A stretch of DNA of 23,358 bases, taken from positions 1 to 23,358 of IMG/VR virus record IMGVR_UViG_3300038528_000007; one strand, written 5' to 3'. The stretch comes from a virus. Position numbers and translations under genes: made by a program. This document shows, piece after piece, positions 2,252 through 17,548 of the stretch. Below the pieces are notes generated by a model that was not told the DNA's origin, ran no database searches, and worked only from the letters and a program-made list of their open reading frames with translations. Within the stretch, counting starts at the first letter, position 1. Every line of letters starts with the position of its first letter.

Positions 2252-2653
2252 TTACGTGCCCATTTCGGGTTCTAGGGCTTTCTTCAGCCCCAGCGCTGCG
2301 ATGTGATCTTGTGCGCTGTCTGCGTTGCTGCCTAGTATAACAGCGATAACATCCGGGCCTGCTATGCCGTTGTTGATCTGTAGCAGCGCCTGTGCCCGTG
2401 TGGCTGCCTCTAAGTCCATGCCCGGCGCGTGGTCAGGGGCTTGTAGCGGCAGGCCTGCCATTTGCGCGAAAACTGGATTTGCGACTGTCGAGGCTACCGA
2501 GTACAGGTTGCCATCGGCGTCTTGATACGATGCGCTGGTGAACGTTTTGTCGTCTGCGCTGGACTCGCCAAGGCATAGGGCTAGTTGGTTGGCGTCAGGG
2601 ATGTGGGCTGCTGGGGCGGCAATTGTAACTCTCTGCGTGTATTCCGTGCTCAT
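2252..2653 (-). CDS. Hypothetical protein after the repeat fibre gene
   Basis: This 133-residue protein of unknown function starts MSTEYTQRVTIAAPAAHIPDA and is rich in Ala, with no membrane segment or clear motif. GGAGG lies about 9 bases before its ATG, and this site lies inside the end of the upstream gene, so translation is probably coupled to it. It may be a partner or assembly factor of the fibre-like protein, or a small virion protein; this is suggested only by position. The 61 bases after it, before the sheath gene, hold no further gene. Confidence 0.75.
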   Translation of the reverse strand: MSTEYTQRVTIAAPAAHIPDANQLALCLGESSADDKTFTSASYQDADGNLYSVASTVANPVFAQMAGLPLQAPDHAPGMDLEAATRAQALLQINNGIAGPDVIAVILGSNADSAQDHIAALGLKKALEPEMGT

Positions 2654-2654
2654 A

Positions 2655-4118
2655 CTAATAGCCTCCGGTTACTGTGACTGTCCAGCCGCGTGAGCGTAGG
2701 GTGTCGATAGCTGCCTCGCCGGTTGATGATGGGGCTGATCCGCCTGATTGGTCAAATACTCTTGTGCCTGAATCAATACCTGAAGTTACTAGTGATACTA
2801 GAATATTATCTATTGATTCTTGTGACAGGTTAGTAGTAGTGAAAGCGAGTGTAAAAACACCACCTTTAATATTATCAAAAGCATTAGCTGGAAAACTAGT
2901 TAATGAAGTACAATTACGCCATGCTTGATAAAAACTAGTACCACTAGATGTATCAATTAATGGAAAACTAACTAATGAAGTACAATAACGCCATGCTTGA
3001 TAAAAACTAGTACCACTAGATGTATCAATTAATGGAAAACTAGTTAATGAATTACAATTATACCATGCAGCATTAAAATCAGTACCACTAGATGTATCAA
3101 TTAATGGAAAACTAACTAATGAAGTACAATAACGCCATGCTTGATAAAAACTAGTACCACTAGATGTATCAATTAATGGAAAACTAGTTAATGAATTACA
3201 AAAGGACCATGCTAAAATAAAACTAGTACCACTAGATGTATCAATTAATGGAAAACTAGTTAATGAATTACAATTATACCATGCTAAAATAAAATTAGTA
3301 CCACTAGATGTATCAATTAATGGAAAACTAGTTAATGAATTACAATCACGCCATGCTTGATAAAAACTAGTACCACTAGATGTATCAATTAATGGAAAAC
3401 TAACTAATGAAGTACAATCACTCCATGCGTAATAAAAACTAGTACCACTAGATGTATCAATTAATGGAAATTCAATAATTTCTGAACGATCTCTCCAATA
3501 CTCACTAAAGCTAGTAACCTCACTGTAATCAACTCCAGCACCATTCTCAATGAAGTATTCTTCAGTATATCTCTTTTCAATGTTAGTCATCGCACTGTTA
3601 AGAAATACAACTCCATTAATAGCGTTACCGGGAAAGTATTCTCCGCCCAGCTCATACGCCCCAGCAGGTATACTAATGCCATAGCTCGCAGTACCATCAT
3701 CCGTAGCAAGCACCATAGTTCCATTCCAGCCGCCCGTAGGCACTGTGATAATCAGCGCGTCGTCTACTTTGTCCAGTGAGAGCCTGTCTGGGCTGGCGTT
3801 GTACGTGGGCCGGGCTGCGCTTGTTGATTGTACTGCGGTGTGTTCATTTGGTGACTGGTCAGCCATTGAACCAACAGGATCACCGTCCGCAGTAACAGGC
3901 ACAGTGCCTGCCGCGTCCTGAAAGAGTGCCTGTGTGCCGTTGACTACTGGCCGGGGGATGTAGAATGCGCCCTGTTCGCCTTGCAGGAATAGATCCGCTG
4001 GTGTAAAAACATAAGGCCGATGCTGCCCCTTACCTCCTAGCATTAGGCCGAATTTTAACAAGTCATTTCTCCCTTTTGTAAAGTTGACATTTATAAGGTT
4101 GTCAATACTTGCGGACAT
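2655..4118 (-). CDS. Leucine-rich-repeat fibre-like protein
   Basis: This 487-residue protein has three parts. Residues 1-216 resemble phage fibre or virion-surface proteins (for example the stretch FYIPRPVVNGTQALFQDAAG). Residues 217-408 are eight tandem 24-residue repeats of the form FPLIDTSSGTSFxxAWxxCxSLxS, related to BspA-like or DUF285-type leucine-rich repeats. Residues 409-487 end in GWTVTVTGGY, a C-terminal cap seen after such repeats in other phage proteins. Leucine-rich repeats form curved solenoids for binding ligands, so a receptor- or surface-binding role is likely but unproven. GAGGG precedes the ATG. The repeat part is about one quarter GC, far below its surroundings, suggesting a transferred module. 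Confidence 0.85.
   Translation of the reverse strand: MSASIDNLINVNFTKGRNDLLKFGLMLGGKGQHRPYVFTPADLFLQGEQGAFYIPRPVVNGTQALFQDAAGTVPVTADGDPVGSMADQSPNEHTAVQSTSAARPTYNASPDRLSLDKVDDALIITVPTGGWNGTMVLATDDGTASYGISIPAGAYELGGEYFPGNAINGVVFLNSAMTNIEKRYTEEYFIENGAGVDYSEVTSFSEYWRDRSEIIEFPLIDTSSGTSFYYAWSDCTSLVSFPLIDTSSGTSFYQAWRDCNSLTSFPLIDTSSGTNFILAWYNCNSLTSFPLIDTSSGTSFILAWSFCNSLTSFPLIDTSSGTSFYQAWRYCTSLVSFPLIDTSSGTDFNAAWYNCNSLTSFPLIDTSSGTSFYQAWRYCTSLVSFPLIDTSSGTSFYQAWRNCTSLTSFPANAFDNIKGGVFTLAFTTTNLSQESIDNILVSLVTSGIDSGTRVFDQSGGSAPSSTGEAAIDTLRSRGWTVTVTGGY
2895..3470 (-). repeat. Eight tandem 72-bp coding repeats
   Basis: The string CCACTAGATG occurs on the plus strand at 2941, 3013, 3085, 3157, 3229, 3301, 3373 and 3445, an exact 72-base period, so the reading frame is kept. 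About half of each unit is identical in all copies even at silent positions, while changes cluster in a few columns. Most copies carry three CTAG tetramers. This is a recently expanded array and may vary in copy number. Confidence 0.97.
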
Positions 4119-4129
4119 TAGTGCGCCCT

Positions 4130-4405
4130 CTAGGCAAAATGGAACGCGCCGCTTGTAACTTCTACAGTCACGGCTTCAGTGATCGAGAAATCATCACCCG
4201 CCACAAACGCAACAACCGCTGTACTTGCGTCACCCCACGTCAAGGTAAGCGAGCCATCCTCAACACAATGCGCAAGCTGTGGACGCAAGCCGGTATCTGG
4301 GTCGGTTACAACACCGGTTGATATATTAACAAGCCCTTTCCGCAACGGGAACGCCTGGACAGAATCGCCGGTCGCGCTGGGTGCCAATCTGATTTGTGGT
4401 GCCAC
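4130..4405 (-). CDS. Hypothetical small virion-region protein
   Basis: This 91-residue protein starts with GTG; AGGA lies 7 bases upstream. It begins MAPQIRLAPSATGDSVQAFP and ends VEVTSGAFHFA, with a Thr/Val-rich, beta-like middle. No family was recognised. It is the first gene of the three-gene cassette that contains the repeat fibre protein and follows the neck genes by 14 bases. It may be an adaptor or a small decoration protein, on position alone. Confidence 0.7.
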   Translation of the reverse strand: MAPQIRLAPSATGDSVQAFPLRKGLVNISTGVVTDPDTGLRPQLAHCVEDGSLTLTWGDASTAVVAFVAGDDFSITEAVTVEVTSGAFHFA

Positions 4406-7851: not shown

Positions 7852-9009
7852 TTATTTCTCCCCCAAAGTGTCAGAGATACGAGACATCAAACCGGAATCG
7901 GCTTTAGTGTCACCAAATTGCGTATAGTCAGAACTTGCCTTACGCAGCAACTTAAACGCCACTGGCAGTTCCGAGTCTTCAAACTTGTCAGCGCTTTGTG
8001 TGGCCAGGGAGTCGCGCATAACAGTGTGTGCAGACTTGCCAACGAAATTATAATCCGCGTCTACAAAGTCGCGGGCCTTGTTGACAACTTCGGAGTACAA
8101 GCGGACCTGACCTTTAACCGCACTAGCAACGGCATCTTTAAACTGGGTGGAGTCGGCAAAGTTTTCTTTGCCGTTCATGTCTTTCATGTCCTTTTCTTCC
8201 ATGTCGGCGTCTTCCATGTCCTTATCCATGTCCTCCATGTCGACGTCTTCCATTTCCATGTCTTCATCTGCCACATCTTCTTCGGCAGGCATGATGTTTT
8301 GCTCTTTGGCGTAAGACATAATTTCCTGCATCGCCGGCATAAGCTTAACGAGCTGGTCAACAGGAACTTTACGGATAGCCTCGGGTAGACCAGTCGCAAT
8401 TTCTACGATCATGTCAAGGCTAACCGAGCCCTCGGCGTCGGTAAACGCCTTGTGTATCTTCTTCGGCTTCATGGTGTCACCCTCCAAGGGCTTGTGTGGT
8501 ATATCGGGTTTGCGGTCTAAGAAGCTGCACAGAGGACCACAACGGCCAGCGGGGACAGCGGCCAGGTGATGGGGTTGTATGTCAATCTGTTCAAAATCAA
8601 AGCGGCTGTGTGGCACAAGGTCTGCTTCATAGCCAAGAGATAATTGATGCTTGTCTTTTAAGAGGATTTGCAGCTCGTCACTTACAGCTAGCTTGTTCTG
8701 GACAGCGAGCCGGGAGTGTGTCGGCTCGTCTATCTGGTCAATGACAACAGACGACTCGACACGCGAACCAGATTCAACGGCAGGCCCATCCATGCTTACG
8801 TGGCCATCGGTCAGCGGTATGCCTGGCATAAGGTAGGCGGCGTTAGCAATAGTTGCCGGTGATCTGTAGACAGTAAACACTCGGTCAAGTGGCTCAAGGC
8901 CTAGCTCTGCACCAAGATACTCCAACACGCCGTCACGAATTGACACGGCAGTACGCGCTGTATCTGAGTAGACAGCTAGATCGGAAAATTGCTTGCGAAT
9001 CGTTGGCAT
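7852..9009 (-). CDS. DUF2213 prohead protease / scaffold-like protein
   Basis: This 385-residue protein matches the DUF2213 pattern: N-terminal MPTIRKQFSDLAVYSDTART, then GIPLTDGHVSMDGP (a conserved His region at about residue 70) and KDKHQLSLGYEADL (a conserved Ser region at about 120), which could be the catalytic His and Ser of a herpesvirus-like prohead protease. The C-terminal half is scaffold-like, with an acidic, Met-rich stretch (about 240-280) of repeated 'MED' units, and ends with helical segments. I prefer the ATG at 9009, with AAAGG 7 bases upstream, over an in-frame TTG at 9036. A strong promoter lies just upstream. The protease role is inferred. Confidence 0.82.
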   Translation of the reverse strand: MPTIRKQFSDLAVYSDTARTAVSIRDGVLEYLGAELGLEPLDRVFTVYRSPATIANAAYLMPGIPLTDGHVSMDGPAVESGSRVESSVVIDQIDEPTHSRLAVQNKLAVSDELQILLKDKHQLSLGYEADLVPHSRFDFEQIDIQPHHLAAVPAGRCGPLCSFLDRKPDIPHKPLEGDTMKPKKIHKAFTDAEGSVSLDMIVEIATGLPEAIRKVPVDQLVKLMPAMQEIMSYAKEQNIMPAEEDVADEDMEMEDVDMEDMDKDMEDADMEEKDMKDMNGKENFADSTQFKDAVASAVKGQVRLYSEVVNKARDFVDADYNFVGKSAHTVMRDSLATQSADKFEDSELPVAFKLLRKASSDYTQFGDTKADSGLMSRISDTLGEK

Positions 9010-9035
9010 ATAAAAGCCTTTAACTGGTTTACGCA

Positions 9036-9064
9036 ATTTTAATATGCTAAGGCTATGGTGTCAA
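9036..9064 (-). promoter_or_regulatory. Strong sigma70 promoter inside the late operon
   Basis: On the minus strand a perfect TTGACA (9059-9064) and TAAAAT (9036-9041) are 17 bases apart. Transcription would start about 20 bases before the ATG at 9009, leaving a short leader with an AAAGG ribosome site. It should boost protease/scaffold, cement and capsid genes apart from the upstream terminase genes. Confidence 0.65.
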
Positions 9065-15282: not shown

Positions 15283-16661
15283 AGCGACATCCCCCGCTTC
15301 TTACTGTTGCCTTTTTGCGCTTCAGCCCACGCTATCGCCTCTTCGGCTGCCTTTCTTGCGCCAAAATCAATCTTGTGATCTGCCGCAACGAACCGGGAAT
15401 ACTGGCCTTCAAAGTGCAAAGCTTCGCTGCCTCGCTCACCCATGCGGATCTTTCCGAAGATGATTTCAGTCAGTGAGTCAGGGGCGTCGGGGTTCGTGTA
15501 ATACCCTTCACGGAACGGGAAGATGATGATGTCTGCGTCTTGCTCAATAGCTCCAGATTCGCGCAGGTCGCTCATCATGGGGCGCTTATCGGTGCGGGAC
15601 TCGACGCCGCGGCTAAGCTGCGACAGGGCGATCACTGGACACTTGAACTCTTTGGCCAGCGACTTGAGCCCGCCTGATATTTTGGTGATTTCCTGAGTGC
15701 GGTTTTCTGCCTTGCCCTGCATAAGCTGCAAGTAATCCACCATGATTAACCCGAGGCTTCCGGCCTTGCGCTTAATTGCGTGAGCCCTGGCTCGCATCTG
15801 GGCAACGGTTAGGCCGCCGCGGTCGTCGATGTGCAAGCTGGCGCTCTGGATTAGTTTGTTGGCCGCGGTGAACCGGGCCCACTCGCCCTCATCGTCCGAG
15901 AGTGTTCCCCGGCGCAATGAATTTAGGTTTATCTTGCCCAGCGAGGCGGTCATTTTTTCAAGTATCTGCGGGGCGCTCATTTCCATTGAGAACACCAGCG
16001 TCTGAATCCCGTCACGGATGCAGTTCTGTTCAACGATATTCATGGCAAACGTACTTTTTCCCATGGATGGCCGGCCAGCGACGATAATCAAATCGCCTTC
16101 GCGCATTCCGTTGATCCGGTCGTCAAGGTGCGGATAGCCAGTAGACAGGCCGATAAGCTCGCCATTCGATTCGTGGCGGCGCTGCATTTCCAGCAGGAAC
16201 TCTTTGGACGCTCGGCGCATATCCCACAGCGAGTCGTCGGCCTTGTTGGTTTTGACGCCCTCAAATTCGGAAAGAATGCGCTCGTGTGCGGTTTGCGGGT
16301 CTTTCTCGTCGTCCAAAATAACCCGCGCTGTCAGGGTGGCGCTGTACAGGTCACGGCGCAGGCCGCGATTGCTGAGAATGTCGCAGTAGGCTGACAGGTT
16401 CTCGATGCTGGGCTTGTTGCTCTGCTCAACGATCTGGGCCAGCAGCTCGCCGGCGTTTTCCATGCCTTCGGCTTCAAGGCGCTCGGCAACGGTAATCAGA
16501 TCCACCGGCTTGTTTTCTTGCAGCAGGTCGTAAGCGGTTTGGGCAAAGTGACGCAAGTGGCCGCTGAAATCACCGGGCTTCACTTTTTCGAATACCTGGG
16601 CGGCGTAATCGGCGCGAAGGGTCAGGCTTAGAACGGCGGCTTCGTAAACGTCGAGGTTCAT
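15279..16661 (-). CDS. dnaB: Replicative DNA helicase, DnaB family
   Basis: This 460-residue protein has both DnaB parts: an N-terminal helical domain (about 1-110, starting MNLDVYEAAVLSLTLRADYA) and a RecA-like ATPase domain. Walker A is GRPSMGKS (196-203), Walker B is LGLIMVDY (303-310), and the H4-like segment ALSQLSRGVESR...DLRESGAIEQDAD lies at 345-377. It unwinds DNA at the phage fork. It overlaps the O-like gene by four bases, so the phage carries its own helicase, as P22 does with gp12, instead of a lambda P-type loader. GGGGTG lies before the ATG. Confidence 0.95.
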   Translation of the reverse strand: MNLDVYEAAVLSLTLRADYAAQVFEKVKPGDFSGHLRHFAQTAYDLLQENKPVDLITVAERLEAEGMENAGELLAQIVEQSNKPSIENLSAYCDILSNRGLRRDLYSATLTARVILDDEKDPQTAHERILSEFEGVKTNKADDSLWDMRRASKEFLLEMQRRHESNGELIGLSTGYPHLDDRINGMREGDLIIVAGRPSMGKSTFAMNIVEQNCIRDGIQTLVFSMEMSAPQILEKMTASLGKINLNSLRRGTLSDDEGEWARFTAANKLIQSASLHIDDRGGLTVAQMRARAHAIKRKAGSLGLIMVDYLQLMQGKAENRTQEITKISGGLKSLAKEFKCPVIALSQLSRGVESRTDKRPMMSDLRESGAIEQDADIIIFPFREGYYTNPDAPDSLTEIIFGKIRMGERGSEALHFEGQYSRFVAADHKIDFGARKAAEEAIAWAEAQKGNSKKRGMSL

Positions 16662-17548
16662 GCGTCACCCCGTTCAAGCTCGTCTTCGTCGTGATACTTG
16701 CACTCAATAACTTTGGCAAAGTTGTCGGCCTTCACGAGCCAGTCCAGGCTGGCAACGAATACTTTGCGGCCCGGCTGCGGTTCAGCGCGTCCTGTAAGAA
16801 ATTTGCTTTTAGCGACAAACTCAAAATATCTGCGCCAGAATCCGAGGTCGTTGCACTGCGTTGATTTAACCTTGGAGTTCCAGCGCTGACGCATGTGGCT
16901 TTTGCGGCTGTCGTTGATGATGATGCACTCGGGGTTATTGGTTAGCAGCTCGTGATACAGGTCTACAATTTTCTGGTATGGGCAGGGGGTTTTCTTGAAT
17001 GCTTTCGTTGCAGCTTCAGGTTGCTCGTTCTCGCTCGGCGAGGACATGTAATACGGAGTATTACTTTTAGTTTTTCTTTTGTCTTTGGTGTGACCAGAAT
17101 TACTGTTCATTGAATGACCAGAATTACTGTTCACTGAACACAATTCCGGATTACTGGTCACTCGCTCTTTTATAAGCCCTTTTGTGGCCTTCTTTTGGAA
17201 CGTCCAGTCGCCTATTTGGGTGTTCATTTTTACCGCAGAACGACTGCCGCCTTCGCGGATAATGACGCCCATTTCGATCAGATCATTCAGTGCTGACGAA
17301 CACACCTGGCGGCGCATCCCTGTGATAGTTGCAAGCTGGCTTGCGGCTATCCTGTCCTTACCCTTACTCCATCCATAGGTCATGCGGATAACAGCCCATA
17401 CAACGCGCTGCTGAACCGATGTTATAGGGTGACTTGCCAGGCCCTCAGCCAGCGCATTAACTACCCGGCAATAGCCGTCCTTGAGCGCTGGCTTATCCCC
17501 TGACATACGCCCCTGCCTTGCGGTTTCAATTGATGCCACGTTATTCAT
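16658..17548 (-). CDS. Replication initiator, lambda O-like
   Basis: This 296-residue protein resembles the Phage_rep_O family. The N-terminal domain (about 30-115) has the winged-helix pattern VVWAVIRMTYGWSKGKDRIAA...ATITGMRRQVCSSALNDLIEMGVIIREG. A linker (about 129-170) is encoded by the iteron and A-rich origin DNA and is low in complexity (NSNSGHSMNSNSGHTK). The C-terminal domain (about 190-296) should contact the helicase. O binds iterons within its own gene and recruits DnaB. AGGGG lies 6 bases before the ATG, and both neighbours overlap it by four bases. Confidence 0.9.
   Translation of the reverse strand: MNNVASIETARQGRMSGDKPALKDGYCRVVNALAEGLASHPITSVQQRVVWAVIRMTYGWSKGKDRIAASQLATITGMRRQVCSSALNDLIEMGVIIREGGSRSAVKMNTQIGDWTFQKKATKGLIKERVTSNPELCSVNSNSGHSMNSNSGHTKDKRKTKSNTPYYMSSPSENEQPEAATKAFKKTPCPYQKIVDLYHELLTNNPECIIINDSRKSHMRQRWNSKVKSTQCNDLGFWRRYFEFVAKSKFLTGRAEPQPGRKVFVASLDWLVKADNFAKVIECKYHDEDELERGDA
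17048..17160. other. Probable phage replication origin inside the O-like gene
   Basis: Three directly repeated sites on the minus strand, TGA(A/C)CAGTAAT, begin at 17160, 17133 and 17109 (spacing 27 and 24 bases). The last two are 19 bases, TGAACAGTAATTCTGGTCA, an imperfect palindrome. An A-rich stretch (17065-17090, minus strand) follows, then a perfect hairpin palindrome, GTAATAC-GGA-GTATTAC (17048-17064). Iterons, A-rich DNA and a palindrome, all inside O, repeat the design of the lambda origin. Confidence 0.8.

Follow-up and report, generated by a model that had tools for sequence, protein, structure and literature searches.

A mobile leucine-rich-repeat cassette in a putative phage spike gene, probably diversified by recombination

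The best overall explanation of the 487-aa protein studied here is that it is probably a surface spike with a leucine-rich-repeat (LRR) domain for receptor binding, carried by a mobile cassette that is diversified by recombination, and that it most likely stands on the head with the ORF91 product as its base. The gene lies in a 23.4-kb viral record, referred to below as the window, which is a whole contig and probably a fragment, and whose late genes are on the minus strand (Table 1). In the proposed scheme, an LRR domain that recognises a molecule on the host surface would be borne by a hinge and a short anchor peculiar to the phage. Together with the cap and the adjacent 133-aa partner, this domain would form a transferable host-recognition cassette, and the protein would most likely be mounted on the capsid, as a head spike whose base is ORF91. 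That the LRR module is exchanged among phages and varies in fixed columns is supported by the comparison of related sequences. The earlier note on this DNA had proposed a binding module, and we agree that the LRR module is very probably for binding; reshuffling of the array probably changes what the virus grips on its host.

Table 1. Features of the LRR gene and its neighbourhood in the window
Feature	Position	Strand	Remarks
Tail terminator gene	4923-4420	-	One side of the LRR gene, beyond ORF91
ORF91, 91 aa, candidate spike-base protein (by position alone)	4130..4405	-	Immediately precedes the fibre gene; Carin-1 gp40 has the same relation to gp39
Gene of the 487-aa LRR spike/fibre protein	2655..4118	-	Single open frame; anchor, hinge, LRR array, cap
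Anchor motif LLKFGLMLGG, residues 20-29	4032..4061	-	Alternating hydrophobic/Gly
Hinge, residues 44-127, GEQGAFY..LFQDAAGTVPVTADGDPVG..	3738..3989	-	47.7% identical to Carin-1 gp39
AT-rich block around the array, limits approximate	2753..3639	.	Sliding GC 0.25-0.37
Array, eight 72-bp units encoding 24-residue LRRs, FPLIDTSSGTxFxxAWxxCxSLxS	2895..3470	-	Predicted LRR fold
C-terminal cap, residues 409-487, FPANAFD...DQSGG...TLRSRGWTVTVTGGY	2658..2894	-	Conserved in relatives
ORF133, 133 aa, cassette partner gene	2252..2653	-	Homologues and HMM matches; Carin-1 gp38 58% identical
DUF3383/tail-sheath gene	2190-691	-	Follows ORF133

The array was first described as eight exact 72-bp repeats. The coordinates, the unit length and the frame all hold, but the sequences are not exact: in pairwise comparison of the eight units the nucleotide identity is 0.83-1.00, with a mean of 0.89. 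At silent positions the description is fully confirmed, that is, wherever two units have an amino acid in common they use the identical codon for it (1.00). The variable residues do cluster, in a range slightly wider than residues 11-18 as originally given, namely in columns 11, 13, 14, 17, 18, 20 and 23 of the unit. As for base composition, the array has a G+C content of 29% with 120-bp minima of 25%, while most neighbouring genes have 50-58%; the AT-rich region extends beyond the array (Table 1). The G+C content at third codon positions (GC3) is 0.21 just before the array and 0.05 within it; the first part of the cap has 0.11, and what follows has 0.50.

The tetramer CTAG had been taken for a rare word that most repeats contain three times. 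This is slightly too high for the units, of which three have three copies and five have two, and the rarity is not seen in the window, since outside the gene 47 copies are present against 44 expected by a Markov estimate, with no depletion. In the array the observed number (19 against 6.7 expected) is in excess because the codon pairs TCT-AGT and ACT-AGT were copied. CTAG as a functional signal was accordingly rejected, the word being a codon by-product.

The assignment of the 24-residue units to LRRs is borne out, and the LRR part is predicted to have a fold of the BspA/TpLRR class. The AlphaFold2 model (14 sequences) has useful confidence in residues 204-487, where pLDDT is mostly 70-92, and leaves residues 1-203 undefined. 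With this model, Foldseek matched LRR proteins at E values around 1e-3, and VIA-align placed the Bacteroides BspA-like proteins 4fs7 (Z 19.9) and 4fd0 (Z 19.4) at the top, together with Treponema pallidum TpLRR (6mlx, Z 16.6); animal and other eukaryotic LRRs were scored at Z 14.7 or less, below both of these. The matches in BFVD include proteins of Synechococcus phage S-SKS1 and Nonlabens phage P12024S. In sequence searches, the gene product matches phrog_34853 (function unknown) at 4.6e-58, and against Pfam and NCBIfam it gives sub-threshold matches only. Among 15 family members, Pfam LRR_5 (PF13306) matches three and DUF285 (PF03382) matches two, and the window protein is matched by neither. 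The likeness to BspA and TpLRR is in the repeat pattern and the predicted fold, whereas the window units differ in their uniform length of 24 residues and in belonging to a phage gene of virion type. Where Phe is usual in BspA repeats, the window units have Trp. The strands are predicted at unit residues 3-5 and 11-13, and from these positions and the usual alternation the constant residues F12, A15, W16, C19 and L22 would point inward and the variable residues outward.

Overall, 20 loci encode close relatives of the LRR protein and 63 encode the sheath. The repeat motif is common among viral contigs, in which at least 119 stretches fit a degenerate pattern. The number of LRR copies differs widely from locus to locus, with one in L018, two in L040, five in L008, six in L039 (a locus cut at the N end with its array complete), eight in both the window and L196, nine in L003 and 11 in L002, so that the expansion and contraction proposed for the module is well seen in relatives having 1 to 11 units. 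In several phages with 84-91% identity in the sheath protein (L026, L027, L028 and L030) the whole cassette is missing and the terminator abuts the sheath. The domain itself can be replaced, as L025 keeps the anchor and ORF133 with a lectin-like domain in place of the LRR, and L032 keeps the anchor alone, with another domain and another partner. An old and stable array would be the same in all relatives, in copies as well as in composition; instead, copy number, presence and codon type all differ. Several other arrangements were observed. L007 (3-2183) encodes two hinge-LRR-cap modules fused in one protein; in L068 (1755-2857) and L079 (578-1680) the interval from the sheath to the following gene is about 1.1 kb longer than in other relatives, possibly through an insertion. 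In Psychrobacter sp. FME13 (L202, 7041-8378) the units have 23 residues and lack the usual Cys, two near-identical unit types alternate, and the codons are its own; this array is an independent case of concerted repeats.

The units fall into two codon types. The B type, with GC3 around 0.5, is found in most relatives, while the AT-rich A type, with GC3 of 0.04-0.09, is found in the window, L196, L018 and L131/L019. In L196 the cassette has 83% nucleotide identity to that of the window over 1.7 kb, with a different anchor and with structural and neighbouring genes unlike those of the window; for L018/L131, the window's sheath is absent from the sequence examined. Therefore the A type is present on three apparently unrelated backbones. 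The silent-codon identity to the window is higher in the array than in the parts around it: for L196 it is 0.94 in the array, 0.77 in the N part, 0.60 in the cap and 0.79 in ORF133; for L018 it is 0.99, 0.71, 0.90 and 0.55 respectively; and for L019 it is 1.00 in the array, 0.92 in the cap and 0.49 in ORF133. The mosaic structure is also visible within and around single arrays. L002 has units of both types as well as chimeras within units (B first half and A second half), and with an N part like that of L018 (0.89) and a cap like that of L008 (0.92) it reads as a recombinant. L003 and L039 are identical over the 414 nt directly before the array and differ in the arrays (nine and six different units), the cap and the backbone. 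Between L008 and L034 the identity is 98% across the 2.5 kb downstream but 88% in the caps, and their units differ.

The base composition could also be read as the trace of a single import from an AT-rich organism followed by a simple recent tandem duplication, with the differences among units being early neutral noise of no function. The low GC3 of the array (0.05) and of the first part of the cap (0.11), with about 0.5 around them, would fit such an origin, as would the silent identity inside the array. We nevertheless regard it as unlikely, because nearly all differences alter the protein and the same columns recur in other lineages, including the codon-distinct B-type arrays, and because an A type located on three backbones speaks against an import that is single and local. 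The search for an AT-rich donor of the A type found none, the exact 27-mer of this type being shared with just four other viral contigs. The earlier suggestion of a recent acquisition is retained for the module in its role as a mobile unit, but the AT-rich type is a lineage on three backbones.

We then consider how the diversity arises. The 22 A-type units, drawn from five contigs, comprise 20 variable haplotypes and show almost no silent change; since these units were picked by their first 30 nt, the constancy of columns 1-10 follows from the selection itself, and the constant columns after these show one silent difference. It should be noted that contig arrays may carry assembly errors. The block RNT (columns 17, 18 and 20) is present in all five A-type contigs with varying partners at columns 11-14. 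Homologous recombination among arrays would be the simplest process to give copy-number change, nearly zero silent divergence, reassortment of half-units and switching of flanks at the same time. We propose that unequal crossing-over and gene conversion among tandem units built on one codon skeleton generate the diversity, both within an array and between co-infecting phages; such recombination would change the copy number, reassort half-units and swap flanks, and selection would favour changes in the exposed columns. No within-population difference in copy number was found between the two ends of contig IMGVR_UViG_3300037296_000035, the shared arrays being identical. These two ends (L002 and L009) of the 44-kb contig are identical over about 4 kb including most of the fibre cassette and then divergent, which could reflect either a terminal duplication or the joining of two variants.

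The variation had been called controlled, and targeted mutagenesis, for example by a diversity-generating retroelement that writes the variable columns, would be a mechanism of this kind. The changes are indeed mostly at codon positions 1 and 2, with minor-allele counts of 48, 59 and 14 for positions 1, 2 and 3; we quote these counts alone because a hypergeometric test for third-position depletion over the variable nucleotide positions is not significant (P 0.40). Such mutagenesis would vary silent adenines as well, yet all 22 units keep the silent A of Ala15, which lies within the variable stretch, other A-rich constant codons are invariant, and neither a reverse transcriptase nor a template was noticed by eye among the ORFs of the window, itself a fragment. 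A retroelement is hence very improbable. Recombination with selection explains the pattern, and with an adenine-targeted mechanism the invariant Ala15 is in conflict, so the description as controlled variation is not upheld.

The adjacent ORF133 belongs to the same piece. An ORF133-family gene is directly downstream in all 24 distinct loci having the DQSGG...RGWTV cap, while other cap types are mostly without it, and on sequence comparison the mobile piece is the hinge, the array, the cap and the 133-aa partner together. ORF133 may act as a chaperone or as a part of the spike. Its model has a pLDDT of 81, and no clear match was found for it in the PDB, by sequence or by fold, or among plasmids. 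L032 (2033-2299) and L199 (5732-6226) lack ORF133 and have, after the fibre gene, another small partner containing a 'GTYD(D/E)EGN' stretch, which suggests a second partner family. A genome scan with the hinge peptides gave no match, and the scan with the cap matched Psychrobacter, where the LRR-ORF133 pair is present in two genomes, one of them that of strain FME13; ORF133 itself is found in 2 of 105 Psychrobacter genomes. In both, the neighbours of the pair look like tail or baseplate genes when read by eye. The LRR module may be one that is plugged onto different virion anchors, and the two Psychrobacter genomes with the cassette offer testable hosts.

The location on the virion was judged in part from Cobetia phage Carin-1, in which gp40, gp39 and gp38 have the same order of small ORF, hinge protein and ORF133-family protein (identities in Table 1). 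There the spike base gp40 (PDB 8cjz) is followed by gp39 with the shared hinge and by the ORF133 homologue gp38, near the major capsid gene, and the same type of order is repeated in L285. Carin-1 gp39 differs in having no LRR array and a lectin-like C-terminal part, and the Carin-1 base is not detectably homologous to ORF91. A similar hinge is found in genes adjoining spike-base genes in L242, L243 and L261. A second known system is the gene transfer agent RcGTA, whose spikes attach it to the host capsule; there a single head fibre is held in a pentameric base by the peptide IALGLGLGL (PMC7296036). The likeness of this pair (base Rcc01079, fibre Rcc01080) to the window genes lies in the short N-terminal anchor peptide of hydrophobic residues and Gly on the fibre, and no sequence homology between them was detected. 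The anchor motif of the window protein has the form expected for a head-spike anchor, as a resemblance and not a proof; the alternating motif is also present in L002, L008, L040 and L032, and a loose alternation of hydrophobic and small residues near the start is found in 23 of the 34 genes that follow spike bases, compared with 92 of 557 background ORFs. Against the spike-base profile ORF91 gave no match by hhalign (E 0.46, probability 0.1%), nor did it against the PDB, and its size and place fit.

Because the order, the hinge and the partner are shared with Carin-1 and the anchor resembles the RcGTA peptide, we favour, by analogy and with moderate confidence, a head spike that has ORF91 for its base; the earlier term fibre-like is suitable in a broad sense, though a head spike is likelier than a tail fibre. 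The recognition cassette might instead provide an accessory tail fibre, mounted on the tail at the neck, sheath or baseplate. Such a location is possible because the cassette sits between the tail terminator and the sheath in the window and because the Psychrobacter copies are among tail- or baseplate-like genes; a weak match to PHROG 1424 'tail protein' also points in this direction. We consider this placement the less likely of the two, as the hinge and the partner are common to the Carin-1 gene pair beside a solved head spike base and the anchor is like the RcGTA head-fibre peptide.

Besides these, the exchange of recognition modules has been described in other phages. In Alteromonas phages A5 and V22, modules of a fibre and its cognate chaperone are exchanged across phage families (PMC10579305); the likeness to our cassette is an exchanged fibre with its partner, which are different proteins, likened by description. 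In the Vibrio mediterranei phage species P. lipares, a two-ORF insertion in the tail module includes an LRR-like protein as the most variable gene, with the LRR assignment having an HHpred probability of 10% (PMC10945359). The likeness here is a two-ORF insertion with an LRR-like variable gene, and one V. mediterranei phage record was matched in a doubtful frame only. A match in Vibrio phage 367.14 was set aside, its matching frame being unlike a real LRR gene. In the open-access literature searched, no paper was found on the silent-site pattern, on this LRR cassette or on a connection of the cassette with spike genes.

If the favoured head-spike reading and its recombination scheme are true, phages use an LRR scaffold for adhesion which is diversified by shuffling of units, not by retroelement mutagenesis, and is exchanged between backbones. 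A solved head-spike operon would then be linked to the unannotated phage protein family phrog_34853. As a tentative analogy, the system could be a counterpart in outcome of the lamprey variable lymphocyte receptors, with a fixed codon skeleton, hypervariable half-units reassorted across unrelated backbones, and a binding repertoire shared together with a partner gene. The array also provides a natural experiment, in which silent sites record recombination under strong selection. In addition, two other repeats were observed in the window: 15-bp tandem repeats at 8176-8265, in the gene at 7852-9036, encode a stretch rich in D, E and M (MEDVDMEDMDKDMEDADMEEKDMKDM), and a 24-bp repeat occurs twice at 17091-17138 inside the gene at 16658-17548 (NSNSGHSMNSNSGHT).
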